From NCBI RefSeq assembly GCF_016656965.1, contig NZ_CP067977.1, positions 1,698,501-1,762,500 on the forward strand: a stretch of 64,000 bases of DNA, written 5' to 3'. Source of the stretch: Brevundimonas vitisensis. GTDB lineage: Bacteria > Pseudomonadota > Alphaproteobacteria > Caulobacterales > Caulobacteraceae. The notes under the pieces were generated by a model. That model was not told the origin of the DNA. It made no database searches and saw nothing but the letters and a program-made list of their open reading frames with translations. Positions within the stretch are counted from its first letter, which is position 1. Every line of letters begins with the position of its first letter. Position numbers and translations under genes: made by a program. Below, piece after piece: positions 14 to 17,319 of the stretch.

Positions 14-529
14 ATGAGCGCCGTCGCCACCGCCTTCGGCCTGGCCCTGGTGGCCGGGCCTGCCGCCGCCCAGGCGACCAATGTGAATCTTGGCCAGTTC
101 GACGGCCGCTGGTTCGAGGTGGTCCGCAGCCACAACGACGTGCAGAAGGACTGCAGCCGGGCCCAGATTGACTTCAACCCCACCAACCGGGCCGACCGCT
201 ACGGCATCGTGGTGACCTGCACCCGCCGCGCCGACGGCGTGGTCGAGACCCTGCGGGCCAATGCCCGGGTCACCGACACGACCACCAATGCCAAATTTCG
301 TTTCAGCCTGACCGGTCTGCTCAGCTTCGGCGGCCTGGCGGGCCAGAACTACTGGGTCTGGGACCATGCGCCGGACTACAGCTGGGCCATCATGGGCCTG
401 CCGAACAAGTCGGACTGGTGGATCTGGCACCGCAGCCAGAGCCCGTCCGAAGCCACCCGCACCCAACTGATCGGCCGCGCCCGCGCCCTGGGCTTCAACA
501 CCGGCAATGTGGTGCACACGGGCCGGTGA
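14..529 (+). CDS. Lipocalin family protein (Blc-like), possibly 5'-partial
   Basis: Small exported lipocalin, a beta-barrel binder of hydrophobic ligands such as lysophospholipids or fatty acids in this family. The N-terminus is a hydrophobic Ala-rich signal stretch ending at about residue 20 (AAAQA). The lipocalin signature GRW is at residues 31-33, and the second half has the PDYSW / WWIWHR pattern seen in bacterial Blc proteins. Cys47 and Cys69 could form a disulfide. The frame is open to the window edge and the visible signal lacks a positively charged N-terminus, so the true start may lie upstream. The transposon's target duplication begins three bases after the stop codon. Confidence 0.82.
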   Translation: MSAVATAFGLALVAGPAAAQATNVNLGQFDGRWFEVVRSHNDVQKDCSRAQIDFNPTNRADRYGIVVTCTRRADGVVETLRANARVTDTTTNAKFRFSLTGLLSFGGLAGQNYWVWDHAPDYSWAIMGLPNKSDWWIWHRSQSPSEATRTQLIGRARALGFNTGNVVHTGR

Positions 530-532
530 TCC

Positions 533-540
533 CGCTTGAT
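533..540. repeat. Target-site duplication, left copy
   Basis: The 8-mer cgcttgat lies immediately outside the left inverted repeat. It is repeated exactly outside the right inverted repeat at 4285-4292. An 8-bp duplication is the length produced by IS1595-family transposases. Confidence 0.93.
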
Positions 541-564
541 GGCGTATGCGTATTTGACAAACCC
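541..564 (+). repeat. Terminal inverted repeat, left (IRL)
   Basis: 24-bp terminal repeat starting ggcgtatgcg and ending ttgacaaaccc. It matches the reverse complement of 4261-4284 at 23 of 24 positions; only the eighth base differs (g versus c). Confidence 0.95.
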
Positions 565-569
565 GTCAG

Positions 570-818
570 TTATGCCGCCTCCGCCAGCCTCCCGCCGCTG
601 GCCTCTCGTATGGCCTGATACAGCCTGACCGCTGCATCTTCTGACACGATCTTGGCGAGAACGTTCAGACCGTCGTCGGCCTCATCGCGCTCATAGAGGA
701 AGTAGCCGAGGCCGTTTCCGGGGCGGCCTTCGCCGCTCGCCAGTTCCTCATTCGTCAGTGGGCTGATGCAAAGAGAACGGCGATTCCCGAGAGCCATGCT
801 AAAGTAGTAATCGCTCAT
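570..818 (-). CDS. Hypothetical 82-residue protein, transposon cargo
   Basis: Small soluble protein of unknown function; no motif recognised. It is mildly acidic and ends in an Ala-rich tail. Its stop codon is only 6 bp inside the left inverted repeat, so it is the outermost cargo gene. It is transcribed divergently from the 237-residue gene, with only 24 bp between the two start codons, so the promoters must overlap each other or the opposite coding region. The start is supported by a weak purine-rich stretch (ggtgag) just upstream. Confidence 0.6.
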   Translation of the reverse strand: MSDYYFSMALGNRRSLCISPLTNEELASGEGRPGNGLGYFLYERDEADDGLNVLAKIVSEDAAVRLYQAIREASGGRLAEAA

Positions 819-842
819 AGATTCTCACCCGAGGTTGATAAC

Positions 843-1556
843 ATGGCTCCGATCCCTCCGCCGAAGCCCCAGAAGTTCCACAAAGACCCGCGCATCTCGG
901 TAAACAAGCTCGCTGAATATCTTGCCACGAATAAGGCCTCAAGGCGAGAGAGAATACTGCGAGATTCCAAGTTTCCGCCAACCTTCCAAGTGATCCGATA
1001 CGAGCCTACACTGGAGCTTGCAAAGCGCTTCCTTGTTGGGAAAGTGCCGAATACGCAGAGTTTACAGGTCGCGATTTCCGAATACGAAGCGACACTGGTG
1101 AATGGCGACTTCGAGGAACGCATGAAGAAGTCGAACGTGGAGGCCATGAAGCTCTTTCTAGGTCTCGCCCCGACGCTCGATTTCCACGAGGCGACCCTGA
1201 CCATGGGTGAGCACGCTCCCAAAAAGCTCCCGATAGCCGACGTCGCGGTGAGCGTCCGGCCGGATGTGCTGGTAACCATGAGCAAGAAGGGTGCCAAGCA
1301 GAGCGGGGCCATAAAGCTCAACATCTCCAAGGGCTCGCCTCACACGAAGGACTCGGCGGAATATGCCGGGGCGCTTCTTCGGCACTACCTCGTCAGTCAG
1401 GGTGGCGACGACTGCGACTATCGCTGCTGCTTCACGCTGGACATCTTCTCGAAGAAGCTCGTCGAAGCACCAAAGGCGATCACCAATCGGCTGAAAGATG
1501 CCGAGGCTGCGTGCGCTGAAATCGCGCGGCAATGGGACTCAATCAAGGCCGCCTAA
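843..1556 (+). CDS. Hypothetical 237-residue protein, transposon cargo
   Basis: Not confidently recognised. The N-terminal third is basic (many Lys/Arg at residues 10-60). The middle has RPDVLV (Asp141) followed 17 residues later by GAIKL (Lys158). This loosely resembles the Asp...x-x-Lys core of PD-(D/E)XK nuclease folds, but the expected acidic or Gln residue two before the Lys is Ala, so the resemblance is only suggestive. A Cys-rich spot (DCDYRCC) lies near residue 190. It is the only plus-strand gene of the transposon, preceded by a gaggt ribosome-binding site, and its 3' end overlaps the convergent membrane-protein gene by 14 bp. Confidence 0.72.
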   Translation: MAPIPPPKPQKFHKDPRISVNKLAEYLATNKASRRERILRDSKFPPTFQVIRYEPTLELAKRFLVGKVPNTQSLQVAISEYEATLVNGDFEERMKKSNVEAMKLFLGLAPTLDFHEATLTMGEHAPKKLPIADVAVSVRPDVLVTMSKKGAKQSGAIKLNISKGSPHTKDSAEYAGALLRHYLVSQGGDDCDYRCCFTLDIFSKKLVEAPKAITNRLKDAEAACAEIARQWDSIKAA

Positions 1557-1749
1557 AGCGAGGCTTCTCGAACCAGAACCAAGTGCGGAAGATGAACACC
1601 AGCCAGCCGCCGACTATAAGCATCACGACGACCTTGGCGGGATCGCGGTCTAGCAGTCGCCACACCACCCAGAAGGCGGGAGCGGCCAGCGCGAGAACAT
1701 AGAGCCGACCCCACGACGGACGGACCCATCGCCAGATATCAGTTTCCAT
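1543..1749 (-). CDS. Small two-helix membrane protein, transposon cargo
   Basis: 68 residues with two predicted transmembrane segments, about residues 16-32 and 39-56. They are joined by a short charged loop (LLDRDPAK), and the protein ends in a basic tail (KPRFRRP). Function unknown. It is the last gene of a four-gene overlapping run on the minus strand, its start lying 11 bp inside the preceding 54-residue gene. Small bi-helical proteins at the end of such runs can be membrane effectors, but nothing here proves that. Confidence 0.6.
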   Translation of the reverse strand: METDIWRWVRPSWGRLYVLALAAPAFWVVWRLLDRDPAKVVVMLIVGGWLVFIFRTWFWFEKPRFRRP

Positions 1750-1903
1750 CCGATGCCGCTTCTGGCTCCGGTGCAGCCTTCTCAGGTTTCGGAGCCCTGA
1801 CTATCCGCCGAAGGTTGGCCTCAAAGACCTCTTCGTTCTCGTGCGCGCCGATCTCGCGGGCCAGGTCCCGGAATTTGTCAGCCTGGGGCCTCGGCTCGCT
1901 CAT
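1739..1903 (-). CDS. Hypothetical 54-residue protein, transposon cargo
   Basis: Small charged protein starting MSEPRPQADKF with a helical core (FRDLAREIG, EEVFEANLRRIV) and a Pro/Ala/Glu-rich tail. This pattern occurs in short proteins of alphaproteobacterial accessory regions whose role I cannot name. The start codon overlaps the stop of the DUF1828-like gene in an ATGA, which chooses this start over a longer open frame reaching 2101. Translational coupling to the upstream gene is likely. Confidence 0.6.
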   Translation of the reverse strand: MSEPRPQADKFRDLAREIGAHENEEVFEANLRRIVRAPKPEKAAPEPEAASDGN

Positions 1904-2694
1904 TGGTAAACCCCCCTTATGCCCGCTTGCTGACGCATCTTCTGGCTTACGTCCCATTGCGCGCCTCCCAGCGATCCCAGCGACACGTTGCTGTTCATCA
2001 ACCTCGCCACGGTGCGTGTCTTGATGGTGGCAGGCTTGGCGTTCTCGAAGACCACCATAGGGATGACGCCTGTCAGCCCTTGGCGCTCCATTTCTTGCCA
2101 CAGAACGAACGCCTCAAGGGCCTTTACTTCGGTCGTTCCTGCGTAAATCGCGAGCGTGGCGTCGGGCCCGCGCACCACCACGTCAGCAACGTAGTCGCTG
2201 AGGGTCGCCATGGGGGATGCGTCGCGTTCGACGACCGCCATGCCTTGGAAGGTCGCTTCGACGAACTCTTGAAGATCCACTTTGAAGGTGTCCCGCACAA
2301 CGGTTCGAGACATCATCCTCAGGTCGCCCAAGCGCACCATGAGCGCCATGAATTTGAGGAAGTAAGCGGGCATCTGCTCTTCGGACAGATAGTCCGTGTG
2401 GATCAGTATTTCGCTCTCGTCGTAGTGGCATCCATACTCGCTAAGCAGGCGATGAAACTCCGCGCCCCTGACCTCATTGTCGAGCGAGAAACCTTCCTCC
2501 TGAAGCTCGGCCATCGTAGCCCCGTCATCCTCAAAACGGTATCGGCTGGAGAAATCGGGATCACGGCGCGCGTATAGCGCCACAGCGTCACCATCTGGGT
2601 TGCGGAAGGGGGTGCGGATTGCAAACCCCATCGGAACCTCGCGCATGGCAAGGCCGTCGCAGAATGTTCCGCACACGTCCTTGAGGAGGTTCAT
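1900..2694 (-). CDS. DUF1828-like domain protein, transposon cargo
   Basis: 264-residue protein. The first ~100 residues have the look of DUF1828 (IRTPF...DGDAVALY...YRFEDDGATMAELQEEGF), a domain of unknown biochemical function found in bacteria, archaea and phage-related loci. The C-terminal part (residues ~150-260, DYVADVVVRGPDA... VKALEAFVLWQEM) looks like its usual partner region (DUF1829-like). Family assignment is from memory of the pattern, not from a search. It overlaps both neighbours by 4 bp (ATGA at 2691-2694 and 1900-1903), so the three proteins are probably made together. Confidence 0.72.
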   Translation of the reverse strand: MNLLKDVCGTFCDGLAMREVPMGFAIRTPFRNPDGDAVALYARRDPDFSSRYRFEDDGATMAELQEEGFSLDNEVRGAEFHRLLSEYGCHYDESEILIHTDYLSEEQMPAYFLKFMALMVRLGDLRMMSRTVVRDTFKVDLQEFVEATFQGMAVVERDASPMATLSDYVADVVVRGPDATLAIYAGTTEVKALEAFVLWQEMERQGLTGVIPMVVFENAKPATIKTRTVARLMNSNVSLGSLGGAQWDVSQKMRQQAGIRGVYQ

Positions 2695-3164
2695 AACAGG
2701 CTGCCCTTCTGGTCGAAGCCATAACGCTTCGCGGCAATATCGAACGCAGTCGCTTCGGTGACGTTAAATACCGCGCTGGCGTCAATCGCGGTCGGCCTCT
2801 TCCTCTTCCCCGCTCGCACCGTGCCAGCGACAACGGAATTTAGGGGCTTTGTAGTAAAATGGCAATGCCAACCGGGTTCTGACGAGTGAAACTCATGCTC
2901 GCACAGAACGATCATATCGCCCCCTTCTTCGACGCCTAGCTTAGCGCGAAATATTTCCTTGCTCTCGTTAAGCACAATTTTAACGCGAATACGCCGACCT
3001 AGCGCCGTGAACCTTACAATGCGCCAGCTATACGCGCGCCCAAACTTGTAGGCACTCTCCTTCACCTTTGATTGGGGAAAGGCATGACGAGGGATATGGC
3101 CGTATTGCCACTTTCCCAAGTCAAAGGCGGATTTTTCCGCCTTGATGATGTCTTTAAGTCGCAT
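2691..3164 (-). CDS. Hypothetical His/Cys-rich 157-residue protein, transposon cargo
   Basis: Basic protein of unknown function. A compact cluster at residues 88-102 (CEHEFH...EPGWHCHF: Cys88, His90, His93, His100, Cys101, His102) could bind a metal ion or form an active site. The start at 3164 is chosen because gagggg lies just upstream; an in-frame ATG at 3203 would add 13 residues. The stop overlaps the start of the DUF1828-like gene. It lies 83 bp downstream of the transposase gene on the same strand, so it may be read from the transposase promoter or from its own. Confidence 0.68.
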   Translation of the reverse strand: MRLKDIIKAEKSAFDLGKWQYGHIPRHAFPQSKVKESAYKFGRAYSWRIVRFTALGRRIRVKIVLNESKEIFRAKLGVEEGGDMIVLCEHEFHSSEPGWHCHFTTKPLNSVVAGTVRAGKRKRPTAIDASAVFNVTEATAFDIAAKRYGFDQKGSLL

Positions 3165-3166
3165 GG

Positions 3167-3200
3167 CCCCTCGCGAAGCGCATAGAGCCTCGCTGAGGGG
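3167..3200. promoter_or_regulatory. Imperfect palindrome at the start of the cargo operon
   Basis: cccctcgcga ... tcgctgagggg forms an imperfect inverted repeat that includes the presumed ribosome-binding site of the 157-residue gene. It could be an operator or a translation-blocking hairpin. No experiment supports either. Confidence 0.35.
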
Positions 3201-3247
3201 CACAAGGTCAACCGCGCGTTCGCCAGCGAGCGCCGTGCCACTTGCCG

Positions 3248-4219
3248 TTAGGCGACGGCTTCGGCCCGCAAGTCAGTTGACCGATAGGTGAGGCGCTTGC
3301 CGACGACGCCCAGCACGGCGCGCATGGTGCGTTCCTGATCTTCACAGCCCAGCGCCGAACGGTTGGAATAGCGGAAATCGAACTCTGCCAGATAGCGGTG
3401 CAGGTGCTTCTTGGAGCAGTGCTGATAGACGCCTTTCATGCCGCGTTTGAAGATCGAGAAGAAGCCCTCGACCGTGTTGGTGTGGACGCGCGGGTCCAGC
3501 TTGAAGACATACTCGCCTTTGCTGTGATTGACGCGCGAGTGGGCGGCGAGCGTCTTGCCAGCGCGGCGATAGAAGGTCGCTTCGTCGGTCATCAGGTGCG
3601 CTTCGGTGGCCATGTTGGCCGCGACGATCAGGCCGATCTGGTTGGTGTTGACGTCGTTCATGACGAACGAGCGCGAACGACCCGTGCTGCGTTCGACGAG
3701 GCTCAGAACCTTCATCTTGTGCGCGCCGCCCGAAGTGACCGGGGTATTGGGCTCGCGACCGATGTAGGTTTCATCAGCCTCGACCATGCCGCCGTCCATA
3801 CCGAAGGGCGAGAGGTCGCCAGAGCGCATGGCTTCGCGGATGCGGTGGGCCAGGAACCACGCGGTGTTGTATTGGACCTCAAGGGTGCGCTGGAGCTGGA
3901 GGGCCGAAACGCCCTTCTTGCTGCTGCACATCAGATAGATCGCCTGTAGCCACTTATGCAGGGGCAGGTGGCTTTCCTCAAAGATCGTGCCCTTGCGGAC
4001 GGTGAACTGGCCACGGCAAGCGCCGCACTTCTTCAGGCCATGACGGATCACGCCTTCCGGGTTCTTCTTGGAGGGCTTGGAGCGCACCGCCTTGAGGGCA
4101 TAGGACCGACCGACAACGCCGCAGTGCGGGCACGAGGCCTCGCCGCCCCAGATGATGCCTTCGACGAACGCGAAAGCGGCGGCTTCATCGTGAAAATAGG
4201 GCTTGGACAGAACGGACAC
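3248..4219 (-). CDS. IS1595-family transposase
   Basis: 323-residue transposase, full length for the family. An N-terminal zinc-ribbon has Cys30, Cys33, Cys65 and Cys68. The DDE/DDN-type catalytic core shows VEADETYIG (Asp149), MTDEATFY (Asp212) and the signature HTNTVEGFFSIFKRG (Asn248, Glu251, Lys258), followed by YLAEFDFRYSNR, typical of IS1595 members. A good ribosome-binding site (aaggag, 9 bp spacing) precedes the ATG. No frameshift or internal stop is seen, so the element may still be active. Confidence 0.93.
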   Translation of the reverse strand: MSVLSKPYFHDEAAAFAFVEGIIWGGEASCPHCGVVGRSYALKAVRSKPSKKNPEGVIRHGLKKCGACRGQFTVRKGTIFEESHLPLHKWLQAIYLMCSSKKGVSALQLQRTLEVQYNTAWFLAHRIREAMRSGDLSPFGMDGGMVEADETYIGREPNTPVTSGGAHKMKVLSLVERSTGRSRSFVMNDVNTNQIGLIVAANMATEAHLMTDEATFYRRAGKTLAAHSRVNHSKGEYVFKLDPRVHTNTVEGFFSIFKRGMKGVYQHCSKKHLHRYLAEFDFRYSNRSALGCEDQERTMRAVLGVVGKRLTYRSTDLRAEAVA

Positions 4220-4260
4220 GGCGGGTTTCTCCTTACCCGCTCAATATCGCCTAGCTGGAT

Positions 4261-4284
4261 GGGTTTGTCAAATACGGATACGCC
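4261..4284 (-). repeat. Terminal inverted repeat, right (IRR)
   Basis: Reads gggtttgtca...gatacgcc on the plus strand, the reverse complement of 541-564 with one mismatch. It lies 41 bp upstream of the transposase start. Confidence 0.95.
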
Positions 4285-4292
4285 CGCTTGAT
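4285..4292. repeat. Target-site duplication, right copy
   Basis: cgcttgat, identical to 533-540 on the other side of the transposon. Removing 541-4292 restores a continuous lipocalin–mmcB intergenic region. Confidence 0.93.
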
Positions 4293-4322
4293 CCGTGAAC
4301 ACAAGCGGAACATAAGTCGAGG

Positions 4323-4766
4323 ATGGCTGCTGCCGTCCATCTGGAACTTGTCTTTTCCCGGCCCGAAACCACCCAGGCGGTGACGCGGGGGGCGGCGCGG
4401 CTGTTGCTGGACATGGGCTATGCGCCGCTGATGGAGGTCTGCCTGCCCAATGGGCGCAGGGCCGACGTCATGGCCCTGGGTCCGCGCGGCGACATCGTCA
4501 TCTGCGAGGTGAAGTCGGGGCTGGACGATTATCGCGTCGACCGGAAATGGGGCGAATACGGCCCCTTCTGCGATGCCTTCTATTTCGCGGTCGCGCCGGA
4601 GTTTCCGGTCGACGTCCTGCCGGACCAGCCCGGCCTGATCGTCGCCGACGGGTTCGGCGGGGCGGTTGTGCGCGAAGCCCCGGTTGAGGCCCTGTCCCCC
4701 GCCCGCCGCAAGGCGCTGACCATCGCCTTCGGCCGTCTGGGGGCCATGCGGTCGATGCGGCTTTAG
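4323..4766 (+). CDS. mmcB: MmcB family DNA repair protein
   Basis: 147-residue protein of the MmcB family (formerly DUF1052). In Caulobacter the family is linked to survival after mitomycin C damage. A PD-(D/E)XK-type nuclease core is visible: Asp48 in RRADVMAL and Glu62-x-Lys64 in CEVKSG, followed by a conserved DYRVDRKWGEY segment. The length is normal for the family. It is a single gene between the transposon and the convergent regA-like gene. Damage induction would be expected from known homologues, but I did not recognise a LexA box in the short upstream region left by the insertion. Confidence 0.88.
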   Translation: MAAAVHLELVFSRPETTQAVTRGAARLLLDMGYAPLMEVCLPNGRRADVMALGPRGDIVICEVKSGLDDYRVDRKWGEYGPFCDAFYFAVAPEFPVDVLPDQPGLIVADGFGGAVVREAPVEALSPARRKALTIAFGRLGAMRSMRL

Positions 4767-7991: not shown

Positions 7992-8162
7992 CGTTCGACA
8001 CGTCCCTTCAATAAGCACAGATTGATGTGCGCCCTCGCACAGCAGCTGTCTGCCAAAAGTTGAAAACTCAGCACATTATCGTCAGGGAGAAGAGCACGAC
8101 GATTATGGCCGTTTTCGCATGGCGACCCGCAGAATAATCCTGTTCTGGCCGAATGCCAGAGC

Positions 8163-9773
8163 TTAGGTATTCAGGCGGAAGCGCCAGCCGGGCAGCGCGG
8201 TGGCGGCCGCGACCGCCAACACCAGACCCAGCCAGAACAGAGCGTCGCCGAACCGGCCATACAGGGTCACGGCTGCGGGCCTGGGCAGGCGCGCGTCGAT
8301 GACCCCGCTTTCACCCGCGTCGATCCGTTTGTCCCCCACCACGCGCCCCCAGGGATCGATCATGGCCGACACCCCGGTCGGTGTGGCCCGAGCCAGCGGC
8401 AGACCGGTCTCGATCGCGCGATAGGCCGCCAGATTGAGGTGCTGCAGCGGTCCGGACGTCTTCCCGAACCAGGCGTCGTTCGAGACATTGGCGATCCACT
8501 CCGGCCGCCCCACGCCGCCCGGTGTGAAACCGGGATAGAGGCTCTCGTAGCAGATCAGCGGCTGGACCCGGGGTGCACCCGGCAGATCGATCGGCGCGGG
8601 TCGCGGACCGGCGCTGAAATCGGATGGAACGTGCACCAGGCTGCGGATGCCCAGGACACTCATCAACTGACCTGCCGGCAGATACTCGCCGAAGGGCACC
8701 AGCCGATGCTTGTCATAGACGGCCGCAATACGCAGGCCCTGTGCGCCTTCGCTGTGCAGGGCGATCAGGCTGTTGAAATAGCGCGCGCCTTCAGGGGCGG
8801 AGGCGTCGTCCTGTCCCCGGCTGAGCCCGGCCAGCAGGGTTTGGCCCGGCTGGAGCGCTCGAGCGATGGCCATGCCTTCTTCAGCGCCCGGCGCGAACAC
8901 GCGATTGAAGGTATTGGGCAGCGCGCCCTCGGGCCACAGGATGACGTCAGGCACCACCGCGCCGGGTCGGGCCGTCAGATTCACATAGCGGTCGACGATG
9001 CCGAAATAGGCTTCGGGCGTCCATTTGGACTGCTGGTCCACATCGGCCTGGACGATCCGGACGACAGTATCGGTGTAGGTCACCTTGGCGCGGTCCAGCC
9101 GCACCGTGCCCCCGACGACCAGCGCCAGCAGAGCCAGCCCGCCCGCCACCGCAGCACCGATGCGCGCCTTGCGCGGACCCGGCCCGGCCAGAGGCCCGAA
9201 CGCCGACGCCGCCACGACGGTATAGAGGCTCAGCCCATAGACACCGGCCACGGCCGCAAACTGTGACGCCGCCGATCCCGCCGCCCAGCCTGCACCGGCC
9301 GGATTCCAAGGGAAGCCGGTCAGCACATGGCCACGCACCCACTCCATCAGACAGAAAAGGGCGGCGAACAGCAGGATTCGACGCACGCCGGTCGGGGTGA
9401 ACCGGCGGTAAAGCGCTGTGGCCACGCCCCAGAACAGCCCCAGACCTGCGGGCAGCAGGCTGGCTGCGAACGGTGCCATCCAGGCTTGATCGGGATTGAC
9501 GAAGAAGGCCTCGGCCACCCACCAGCAGCCGATGAAGAAATAGGCGAACCCGGCTAGCCATCCGACCCAGAACCCGCCTTTTACGGTTTCCGACCGCTCG
9601 GCCAGCAGCATCAGAAGGGGATAGCCGACCAGTCCGGGCAGAAGGCCGAACGGTGGATGAACCAGGGCCGTTGCCACCCCCGCCAACAGGGCAAGAGCAA
9701 TCCTCAGCAGCCGCCCACCGAGTGCCTTCCGGTCAGGGCGGACATGGGGCTGTGTCAGGATATCATCGGTCAT
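8163..9773 (-). CDS. lnt: Apolipoprotein N-acyltransferase
   Basis: 536-residue inner-membrane enzyme that adds the third acyl chain to outer-membrane lipoproteins. The N-terminal half is a multi-helix membrane domain and the C-terminal half a periplasmic nitrilase-like domain. The catalytic triad is visible: Glu282 (WPEG), Lys355 (DKHRLVPFGEY) and Cys408 (ICYE). A final transmembrane helix closes the protein. The ATG at 9773 overlaps the ybeY 3' end by 11 bp and is preferred over an upstream in-frame start that would add 30 low-complexity residues. It is the last gene of the miaB–phoH–ybeY–lnt run. Confidence 0.95.
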   Translation of the reverse strand: MTDDILTQPHVRPDRKALGGRLLRIALALLAGVATALVHPPFGLLPGLVGYPLLMLLAERSETVKGGFWVGWLAGFAYFFIGCWWVAEAFFVNPDQAWMAPFAASLLPAGLGLFWGVATALYRRFTPTGVRRILLFAALFCLMEWVRGHVLTGFPWNPAGAGWAAGSAASQFAAVAGVYGLSLYTVVAASAFGPLAGPGPRKARIGAAVAGGLALLALVVGGTVRLDRAKVTYTDTVVRIVQADVDQQSKWTPEAYFGIVDRYVNLTARPGAVVPDVILWPEGALPNTFNRVFAPGAEEGMAIARALQPGQTLLAGLSRGQDDASAPEGARYFNSLIALHSEGAQGLRIAAVYDKHRLVPFGEYLPAGQLMSVLGIRSLVHVPSDFSAGPRPAPIDLPGAPRVQPLICYESLYPGFTPGGVGRPEWIANVSNDAWFGKTSGPLQHLNLAAYRAIETGLPLARATPTGVSAMIDPWGRVVGDKRIDAGESGVIDARLPRPAAVTLYGRFGDALFWLGLVLAVAAATALPGWRFRLNT

Positions 9774-14577: not shown

Positions 14578-15003
14578 TTAAAGCCGGACGATGGCCGATG
14601 TCGCGATTTCGACTGCCGAGGCGGGCCGCGGATCGAGCTGAATGAAGGGCAGGGATATCCCCGCAACGGTCCGGAACTGGGGTTCGGGCAAGCGCTCGGC
14701 TGTGATGGACGACAGCTCGATCAGCAGTGCCAGCCGGACCAGACCAAGTGTCGGTGCCGGGACGATGCCCACCCCTCGGGCCTCGATCTGGCCTGCGATA
14801 CTGTGCGGGACCGTCGCATAGGCCGAGCCGCCGGAGGCCCAGACATGGGTGTAGTCGTCGGCGACCAGCCGCCAGCCACGGGCGATCAACCGCAGGGCCA
14901 GGTCGCTTTTGCCCGCCCCGGACGGCCCGGTGATCATAAGGCCGCGCCAACCGTCCAGGCCACGGTAGGCAACGGTGGTGCCATGCAGGGCCTGTGTCGT
15001 CAT
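14578..15003 (-). CDS. hprK: HPr kinase/phosphorylase, short alphaproteobacterial form
   Basis: 141-residue protein holding only the C-terminal kinase domain of HprK, as is usual in alphaproteobacteria. The P-loop GPSGAGKS is at residues 26-33, followed by the ADD segment and a conserved GIVPAP region. It phosphorylates HPr on serine. The start overlaps the chvG stop by 4 bp (ATGA at 15000-15003), so the sensor kinase and hprK are probably co-translated, tying envelope signalling to PTS state. Confidence 0.93.
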   Translation of the reverse strand: MTTQALHGTTVAYRGLDGWRGLMITGPSGAGKSDLALRLIARGWRLVADDYTHVWASGGSAYATVPHSIAGQIEARGVGIVPAPTLGLVRLALLIELSSITAERLPEPQFRTVAGISLPFIQLDPRPASAVEIATSAIVRL

Positions 15004-16646
15004 GCGCGCCGTCCCGGCAGGGGCAGGTTGATCTCGAACCGCGCGCCCTGGACCGTGTCGTCTTCGGCCTTGCGATTGACGGCCCAGACCTTGCCGCCAT
15101 GGGCCTCCACGATCTGACGCACGATCGACAGGCCAAGGCCGGAGTTGGCCCCGAAGGCGGTTCCCTTGGGCCGGGAGGTATAGAATCGCTCGAACACCGT
15201 CTCCAGGTTTTCGGACGGGATACCGGGGCCGTCGTCCTCGACCACGATACGCAGTGGCCGGTCCGGATCGGCCGCATCGCGACTGAGCGCCACACGCACC
15301 TCACTGTCCGCCGGACTGAACGAACGGGCATTGTCGATCAGATTGCGGACGACCTGACCCAAGGGGCCGTCTCGGCCCAGCACGCGCGTGGCTTCCGCCG
15401 GCAGCGGCGCCAATCGCACCGCAGGCTCGCCCGGCTTCAGCGTGGTCTGATAGACGCCCACAATCTCGGTCAGCAATCGGCCCATATCGACCGCCCGGGG
15501 CCGGTCGCGCGACAGCTCGGCATCCAGCCGCGAGGCGTTGGAGATATCGGTAATCAGGCGATCCAGTCGGCGTACATCGGCCTGCAGCAGGGCCGTCAGG
15601 CGTTCTCTCTGGCTCTTGTCCTTGACCAGATCCAGGGTCTCCAGCGCAGAGCGGATGGAGGTCAGGGGGTTTTTGATCTCGTGGCTGACGTCGGCAGCGA
15701 ACCGCTCGATCGCATCCATCCGGTCGGACAGGGCCAGGGTCATGGTCTCGAGCGAACGAGCCAGATCGCCGATTTCATCCTTGCGATCTTCAAGGTCGGG
15801 CAGAGAGATGGCGCGCGCGCGCTGCATCCGCACCTGATCGGCCGCAGCCGAAAGCCGCATCACCGGCCGCGCCACGAAGACATGCAGCAACAGCGACGAA
15901 AAGAGCGAGACAGCCAGGGCCACCAGGGCGAAGGGGACCAGGGCCCGGCGCTGGGCCGACAGGATGGCATCGACATCGCCCGCTTCCAGCGTCAGCACCC
16001 CCAGAACCTGGCGGACGTGACGCACCGGGATGGACACCGACACCACCCGCTCGCCCGCCTCCGACAGACGCACGCCGGCCTGGGGCGTGCCGGCCAGGGC
16101 CGCCTCGACCTCGGCGGCCAGTTGGGCGCGGGCACGTTCGGACCGGGCAGCCTCCTTGGCCTCGGCTTCCGGCTGGACGGGTTCAGGCGGCGTACCGGCC
16201 GGCAGGGCGGGCGGGAGATTGCTGCCGCCGATCGTCTCGGACACGACATAGCTGTCGACCACCAGCACGCCGTCGATGTCGTAAAGGCGGGCGCGCTGAC
16301 CCTGGGGAATGAAATTGTCCCTCAGCCACTGAGCGGCCGCCAGCCCGTCCAACACCGGAACGGGCTCGCCTTCCGTGATCCCCAGCTCGCCCAGCACATT
16401 CGACAGCAGCTCGGCCTGGACGGTCAGGGATTCCTGGCGGGCCTCCACGAGGCCGCGATCCCATTCGTTGAGCGCCAGCGCCCCACCGAACAGGATCATC
16501 AGACTGAGCAGGTTCAGCGCCAGGATCAGCCCGCCGAGTCGGGAGCCCCCGAAGCGGAACAGGCGGCCCCGGCGTTTGCCCTCACCCCGAAGGGGCTCGG
16601 ACGGCGCCGTGGCCTCAGCTTTCGCGGTAACGATATCCGACGCCAT
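15000..16646 (-). CDS. chvG: Sensor histidine kinase ChvG/ExoS
   Basis: 548-residue membrane kinase of the ChvG family, which senses acid or envelope stress and controls outer-membrane and envelope genes in alphaproteobacteria. Transmembrane helices lie at about residues 38-60 and 235-258, bounding a periplasmic sensor domain. A HAMP region follows, then the H-box with His322 ([11 protein letters not shown]) and ATPase motifs including DDGPG and a Gly-rich G2 box. The ATG at 16646 overlaps chvI by 32 bp. chvI lies upstream and hprK downstream, the classical arrangement. Confidence 0.94.
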
Positions 16647-17319
16647 ACAGGGTCTCGATCGCGTCGAACTCGGGATCGACCACCCGGAACTTCTTTCGCA
16701 TCCGTTTGACGTGGCTGTCGATGGTCCGATCGTCGACATAGACCTGATCGTCGTAAGCGGCGTCCATCAGATTGTCGCGGCTCTTCACGAAGCCGGGCCG
16801 CTGGGCCAGGGCCTGGAGCAGCAGGAACTCGGTCACGGTCAGCTTGACCGCCTTGCCGTCCCAGGTGGACTCGTGACGCGCAGGGTCCATGGTCAGCTTG
16901 CCGCGCTTGATGGCCTTGGTCGAGTTGTCGGCCGAGGCTTCGGCCTCACCGCCATCGACACCCGAACGGCGCAGCAGCGCCTTGACCCGCTCGATCAGCA
17001 GCCGCTGGCTGAAGGGTTTGGTGATGTAGTCGTCGGCCCCCAGGTTGAAGCCCAGGATTTCGTCGATCTCTTCGTCCTTGGACGTCAGCATGATCACCGG
17101 GATCTGGGAGGTCTGGCGCAGGCGGCGCAGCACCTCCATGCCATCCATGCGGGGCATCTTGACGTCCAGGATCGTCAGATCGGGAGGTGACTGTTCCAGC
17201 GCCTCCAGGCCGGTGGCCCCGTCATGATAGGCGGTGACCTTGTGGCCATGGCTCTCCAGCGCCAGGGAGACGGAGGCAACGATATTCTCGTCGTCGTCGA
17301 CCAGGGTGATGTTGGCCAA
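16615..17319 (-). CDS. chvI: Response regulator ChvI
   Basis: OmpR-type regulator paired with ChvG. The receiver domain has the acidic pocket VDDDEN and phosphoacceptor Asp52 ([10 protein letters not shown]); the C-terminal winged helix recognises DNA ([16 protein letters not shown]). I place the start at TTG 17319, giving [10 protein letters not shown], because aggag sits 6 bp upstream and homologues begin at this point. An in-frame GTG at 17337 would add six residues but would make the Shine-Dalgarno sequence itself coding. Length from the TTG is 234 residues. Confidence 0.93.

Follow-up and report, generated by a model that had tools for sequence, protein, structure and literature searches.

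The stretch of DNA considered here, called the window throughout, comprises 64,000 nucleotides (nt) of Brevundimonas vitisensis contig NZ_CP067977.1, and all positions given below are positions within it. Inserted between a lipocalin gene and mmcB is a cargo-carrying transposon of the IS1595 family. The element proper occupies positions 541-4284 (3,744 bp) and encodes a transposase together with six further open reading frames (ORFs) of 82, 237, 68, 54, 264, and 157-170 codons, here called a82, b237, c68, d54, e264, and f170. With these six ORFs present, it departs from the classical layout of an insertion sequence (IS), in which the transposase gene stands alone. Two parts of its gene content are of particular interest, namely, d54, a small companion of the transposase, and the gene pair f170-e264.

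The transposase gene (3248..4219, reverse strand) has a GTG start and 323 codons. Its product carries the Pfam domain Zn_ribbon_IS1595 at the N terminus (E 2e-8) and DDE_Tnp_IS1595 at the C terminus (E 1.6e-33), and the protein matches the NCBIfam IS1595 model at E 1.3e-57. Residues D149, D212, and E251, which we take from knowledge of the family to be the catalytic ones, are invariant in all 70 elements compared (the window included), and the zinc-ribbon cysteines C30, C33, C65, and C68 are likewise present in 70/70. Judged by these sequences, the element is a member of the IS1595 family, and the clade to which it belongs is a variant within IS1595.

The ends of the element are well defined. 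The left terminal inverted repeat, at the cargo end (541..564, forward strand), pairs with the right one at the transposase end (4261..4284, reverse strand) at 23 of 24 positions, or 25 of 27 when the alignment is extended. Immediately outside them lie target-site duplications, with identical copies of the 8-bp sequence cgcttgat at 533-540 on the left and 4285-4292 on the right. A chance origin of the repeats was rejected, since none of 20 shuffles of window positions 301-4600 in two-base blocks gave a 24-bp inverted pair with three or fewer mismatches and a spacing of more than 600 bp. What does the site look like in bacteria that lack the element? A query made by joining the two flanks directly found a match (E<=0.001) in 58 of the 61 genus genomes, frequently with its mmcB half alone. 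Among 19 genus loci that were fetched, 13 have a lipocalin-mmcB junction uninterrupted by the element; CGCTTG occurs once at the empty site in 10 of these 13 and is one base off in the other 3. The earlier note on this DNA, made from the letters alone, had described an intact IS1595 transposon with a full-length transposase, 24-bp inverted repeats with a single mismatch, and identical 8-bp duplications, and had pointed to empty lipocalin-mmcB sites in relatives as a check; all of this is borne out, the transposase by its 323 codons, both domains, and conserved residues. It had also placed the element at 541..4292, of which the start stands and the end does not, position 4292 taking in the right-hand duplication.

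Just beyond the right duplication, and before mmcB, is a GAAC-N7-GAAC motif (4297-4311) that resembles an alphaproteobacterial LexA/SOS box. It begins 4 bp from the end of the duplication, was left intact by the insertion, and precedes mmcB in all 13 of the junction-spanning relatives. The window holds five such motifs, compared with 1.3 expected from shuffling.

The transposase has relatives in other genomes. A relative at E<=1e-20 was found in 31 of 131 genus genomes, its own included, and from a scan of genome contigs the best 80 of 200 encoded relatives were kept, the titles of these 80 being mostly alphaproteobacterial with some Betaproteobacteria and others. Element ends were located by an inverted repeat plus a duplication. 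Twenty-four of the 80 had no resolved ends and were set aside, later serving as an out-of-sample set. From 20 wide genus loci, five duplicates (L033, L034, L036, L037, and L038) and two unresolved loci (L035 and L050) were dropped. The resulting 70 complete elements (56 from the scan, 13 from the genus loci, and the window) measure 1,831-4,660 bp, with a median of 2,605, and identical 8-bp duplications flank 67 of them, the exceptions being L052, L073, and L123. None of the 70 is bare, with an end search that admitted sizes of about 1.0-1.1 kb, and the smallest stretch beyond the transposase is 828 bp. More distant IS1595 relatives can also be cargo sized, as L020 and L022 (transposases 41% and 38% identical) show: flanked by 8-bp duplications, they measure 2.0 and 2.2 kb; for the distant genus relatives L024, L026, L028, L029, and L030, ends were not found within 1.5 kb of flank. 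In a set of 71 elements the duplicated target sites are 75% A+T, compared with a G+C content of about 56-62% in those elements for which composition was recorded, which suggests a target preference.

One passenger stands apart from the rest. The 54-codon ORF d54 lies at 1739..1903 on the reverse strand, and a profile grown from it finds members in 48 of the 70 elements at E<=1e-3, all of them on the transposase strand. Four more (in L108, L110, L123, and L138) were taken by eye, for a total of 52/70. When these 52 are labelled on the transposase tree, which was midpoint rooted and whose bootstrap had not settled, the label requires a single change (support 100/97); shuffled labels require 16.2 changes on average, with 0 of 500 shuffles as low as one. 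Using the 48 score-based members instead adds at most four changes. An alignment search of whole genomes (131 from the genus and 289 from the class) gave 28 d54 matches at E<1e-6, 11 in the genus and 17 in the class with the strain's own genome counted once, and 25 of them have a clade transposase, or a fragment of one, no more than 2.4 kb away. As for the others, L186 has an apparent C-terminal remnant of a transposase alongside, L195 adjoins a gene that matches nothing in Pfam, and L199 differs both in its setting and in being a longer protein. The DNA flanking the 70 elements contained no d54 or s50 (a second small family, described below) among 3,419 ORFs (412,598 bases) at the same threshold.

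Of the 24 out-of-sample transposase loci, 16 have a companion (d54 in 15 and s50 in 1); among the eight that lack one, four extend no more than about 1 kb past the start of the transposase. Elements on plasmids (L217 and L218) carry d54 as well, and among the plasmid matches listed it is annotated as hypothetical, 30 of the 32 records being Pseudosulfitobacter plasmids that are not independent of one another. The ratio of nonsynonymous to synonymous differences (pN/pS) for d54 is below 1 in 13/13 pairs over 31-35 codons. With start codons picked nearest to the upstream stop, d54 begins -20 to +30 nt from a stop upstream on the same strand in 30/48 elements. As to what the protein is, the window d54 reached no Pfam cut-off, and 45 members gave weak matches to NCBIfam (best E 0.0058). 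That d54 is random cargo was rejected on the tree fit, the out-of-sample loci, and the absence of the family from flanking ORFs. From these sequence comparisons we propose that the clade has d54 as a second core gene.

What do the elements without d54 carry? The other 18 of the 70 lack it at the threshold used, and all of them carry another small ORF, s50, which shows the pattern RDxxxKRMLxTPPKP and has a basic tail; in 17 of the 18 it lies on the opposite strand. One companion or the other is thus found in 70/70 elements (d54 in 52, of which 48 were found by score and four judged by eye, and s50 in 18, the s50 profile having been built from these same 18). Beyond its 18 source elements s50 was found in L116 and L215; a match in L019 is at the same place as L051 and was not counted. 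Each profile tends to find the other family. When the s50 profile is run on the d54-side elements (1,370 ORFs), d54 takes the first seven places (E 0.0029 for the best and 0.11-2.0 for the rest), and when the d54 profile is run on the 18 remaining elements (456 ORFs), s50 takes the first four (E 0.0053-0.34). An hhalign comparison of the two gave a probability of 56%, and d54 and s50 may possibly be one family.

The remaining passengers differ from element to element. Next to the transposase is the pair f170-e264, whose first gene, f170 (2691..3164, reverse strand), has 157 codons from an ATG at 3164 or 170 from a GTG at 3203, and whose second, e264, lies at 1900..2694 on the same strand. The transposase, f170, e264, d54, and c68 all run in one direction, and the last four overlap (f170/e264 by 4 nt, e264/d54 by 4 nt, and c68/d54 by 11 nt). 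Further along, c68 (1543..1749, reverse strand) is a hydrophobic 68-codon ORF, read by eye as a possible membrane protein, and beyond it come the 237-codon b237 (843..1556, forward strand) and the 82-codon a82 (570..818, reverse strand) at the far end. Neither of these two could be assigned, as b237 had no family above cut-off in Pfam, NCBIfam, PADLOC, or PHROGs and no solved relative, and a82 had nothing above cut-off in Pfam and no match in NCBIfam, PADLOC, or PHROGs.

Two sister elements from the same genus illustrate how this gene set is put together. The Brevundimonas albigilva element L147 has the transposase, f170, e264, and d54 in common with the window and no match to c68, b237, or a82; genus genome G003 carries the same element (first 200 bases the same). 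The B. bacteroides element L078 shares d54, c68 (E 2.8e-24), b237 (E 5.3e-138), and a82 (E 1.2e-40), its DNA being 78% identical to the window over 947 bp that cover b237 and most of a82, and has a DUF3800 gene (E 2.7e-5) at the position of f170-e264. Across the clade, passengers were compared by BLASTP (E<=1e-4, ORFs of at least 85 codons) between elements whose transposases are at least 75% identical, and any passenger was common to the pair in only 7 of 39 such close pairs. The earlier note had counted six cargo genes, had recognised none of them, and had thought the set unfamiliar. Six ORFs there are, but the one at 1739-1903 behaves unlike ordinary cargo, e264 is recognisable as DUF1828, and L147 and L078 each hold part of the same set.

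What might f170-e264 do? The protein e264 matches DUF1828 (PF08861) in Pfam at E 2.7e-16, the phage family phrog_5059 at E 2e-25 over residues 3-241, and the PADLOC model PDC-M24B at E 1.7e-17 over residues 24-146 of 264 alone, about half the protein. Its partner f170 matched no PADLOC model at E<=1, and the second gene that PDC-M24 calls for was accordingly not found. A run of C-x-H-E-x-H...W-H-C-H in f170 is kept, by eye, in L147 and L214. This gene order is kept in L147 (f170 E 3.7e-29, e264 E 1.2e-42) and in L214 (E 1.7e-36 and E 2e-51), where the two genes adjoin an anthranilate synthase gene with no transposase in 12 kb. In L215 a DUF1828 gene lies beside an IS1595 transposase and in L216 an e264-like gene is alone, both without an f170 match. 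Relatives of e264 are rare in the class sample (4 of 289 genomes, its own included), and a search for it in plasmids and viral contigs returned nothing useful. DUF1828 genes suspected by look in L082, L127, and L195 were not placed there by Pfam. Small, overlapping, and conserved together, f170 and e264 share these features with toxin-antitoxin pairs and are, to judge by sequence, a probable mobile two-gene toxin-antitoxin or defence module.

The passengers of the other elements provide a context for this suggestion. From the 70 elements 139 passenger ORFs of at least 85 codons were taken, spurious ones included, and searched against Pfam at E<=1e-3. They match 27 families, among which DUF3800 (9 proteins), PIN (5), and RelA_SpoT (3) are the most frequent, with SocA_Panacea, DUF433, DUF5615, Schlafen AlbA_2, GmrSD_N, and DUF1828 among those represented by two proteins. 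By our reading these are largely toxin-antitoxin or phage-defence types, DUF3800 being formally of unknown function. A control of 139 of the 398 flanking ORFs gave 148 families, with response regulators, MarR, RecA, and ABC transporters foremost; the comparison covers the top 25 Pfam families of each set, rarer ones not being comparable. Individual elements hold recognisable systems. L039 (genome G040, same genus) carries both PD-Lambda-5 genes at 14792-17049 (E 1.3e-177 and 5.5e-117) plus d54, the Sphingomonas changbaiensis element L144 carries a BstA-family protein at 8161-9129 (E 9.2e-116) together with d54, and a passenger of L040 matches PADLOC PDC-S33 at E 1e-115 or better. The L144 gene had been taken for DUF3800 by look, where Pfam does not place it.

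A number of further features were noted in the passengers, mostly by eye. An R-x(4)-H run (e.g., RNDIVH), which resembles the HEPN RNase motif, occurs in passengers of L041, L045, L047, L048, L049, and L052, and a small Cas2/VapD-like protein occurs in L049, L051, L099, and L101. Near the cargo-side end of L044, L045, L047, L048, L049, L052, L120, and L124 there is a short antisense ORF with EIT/EVT..M..AG. L138 contains integrase-core proteins of another insertion sequence (rve/HTH_21) inside the IS1595 element, and beside them lies a RelA/SpoT-like passenger of 151 codons whose match falls below the cut-off (E 2.3e-5).

Taken together, we regard it as probable that the element is an intact, presumably autonomous IS1595 cargo transposon that inserted once, with an inherited companion gene, other passengers that are exchanged, and a defence-type pair aboard. 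The transposase would bind the 24-bp ends and insert the element through an 8-bp staggered cut. The product of d54 may be a second component of transposition or a regulator of it, made from the same operon, as the one-way run of genes and their short overlaps would suggest. The pair f170-e264 would act as a toxin-antitoxin or abortive-infection module and so make the element worth keeping, and b237 and a82 would constitute a second passenger block that is exchanged separately.

The alternative that fares best, doubtful on balance yet a substantial possibility, is that f170-e264 is a metabolic, regulatory, or other selfish pair and that the passengers of the clade are random small accessory genes. 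DUF1828 is, after all, a domain of unknown function. PDC-M24B is a candidate family that covers half of e264, f170 is without a PADLOC model or indeed any family match, and neither protein has a solved relative; a search of solved structures with e264, b237, and f170 gave one row, PspGI at E 0.45, which was taken as chance. Several points from the wider set also weigh against the reading preferred here. Many passengers have no family match, PADLOC by itself gave 129 families for the passengers and 68 for the flanking genes with no clean separation between the two, and the 39 close pairs lack independence, roughly half of them coming from the cluster L042-L051. Set against this alternative are the gene order of f170-e264, which is the same in two transposons and at one place on a chromosome, the similarity of e264 to a phage family over nearly its full length, and the passengers of sister elements, which, where Pfam places them, read as toxin-antitoxin or defence genes, unlike the top flanking families.

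Less likely is the second alternative, in which d54 is just another passenger, retained because it serves the cargo modules as antitoxin, stabiliser, or immunity partner and has no part in transposition. Antitoxins are often small proteins with a basic tail. At a wider limit than the -20 to +30 nt given above, the nearest neighbour of d54 is a cargo gene in 22/48 elements, the transposase in 14/48, and neither in 12/48; overlap or direct contact with the final cargo gene is frequent, and in the window the overlap is 4 nt. The case for a core gene has other weaknesses. The four members added by eye score poorly (E 0.036 to 8.1), only one of five weaker genome matches (E 1e-5 or above) lies by a transposase, and four of the out-of-sample misses (L092, L104, L122, and L139) have 1.9-6.9 kb of downstream DNA and no companion. 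The gene evolves faster than its transposase, with the higher pN/pS in 11/13 pairs. Neither d54 nor s50 was found in the cargo-sized elements L020 and L022 with distant transposases, so that cargo may, in general, be carried without a companion. The preference for a core gene comes from the retention of d54 across unrelated cargo families, its position directly after the transposase in 14 elements, and its fit to the transposase tree, which the cargo does not follow.

A third alternative, that the element has decayed or can no longer move, is very improbable: it is single copy, the transposase having one match in its own 2.98 Mb single-contig genome at E<=0.001, recent movement there was not seen, and its ends differ by one mismatch, but the transposase keeps its conserved residues and has no internal stop, the duplication is identical, and the ends are like those of sister elements, and decay was rejected on these grounds.

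How does this arrangement compare with known systems? Elements of the IS1595 family generally pass for simple insertion sequences, and the ISNwi1 and ISNha5 subgroups are large, passenger-carrying members of the family. The size range of 1.8-4.7 kb seen here presumably resembles that of the ISNwi1 subgroup. The family paper is that of Siguier, Gagnevin, and Chandler (2009, Res Microbiol 160:232), and the paper cited for tISCpe8 calls it, in its title, a lincomycin resistance element. The open literature searched describes no conserved second gene in IS1595 elements, nor this set of passengers, within a coverage that takes in neither of these two papers and does not establish absence from print. 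As far as such searches reach, the combination of a conserved companion gene with repeated exchange of defence-type passengers would appear to be new. With IS1595 elements that carry passengers, the clade shares the transposase domains, the 8-bp duplications, and the placement of passengers beside the transposase. In the portion of a family summary that was available, IS1595 members have "a single transposase gene" and 8-bp duplications, every group except one has a zinc finger at the N terminus, and the conserved second small gene found here is absent from it (PMC8101967). The integrative and mobilizable elements tISCpe8 and MTnSag1, from Clostridium and Streptococcus hosts, likewise combine an IS1595-type DDE transposase with passengers (PMC5704250). 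Tn3-family transposons also have toxin-antitoxin-type genes adjoining the transposition genes, and one account describes such pairs within the transposition module as acquired several times independently, with a possible stabilising role; these transposons employ a large TnpA and a resolvase, in contrast to an IS1595 transposase with a conserved protein of roughly 50 codons here (PMC7157771). The tIS66 elements, ISPa75-fosZ among them, are comparable in being insertion sequences with an acquired passenger, at the frontier between IS and transposon, but belong to the IS66 family and have three core ORFs and a single resistance passenger (PMC12888890).

Tentatively, and at somewhat below even confidence, we suggest that this largely proteobacterial IS1595 clade is built on a two-component module, the transposase plus a d54/s50 protein of about 50 codons, and has a passenger slot into which new modules, for the most part of toxin-antitoxin and phage-defence type, are repeatedly loaded. 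The clade would then be the equivalent of a defence island on the scale of a short transposon. With a companion gene and no bare member found, the clade offers a testable candidate for how a small transposase carries cargo, or for how it controls itself. The passengers of the sister elements, f170-e264 included, may in turn be a compact place in which to seek toxin-antitoxin and anti-phage genes.

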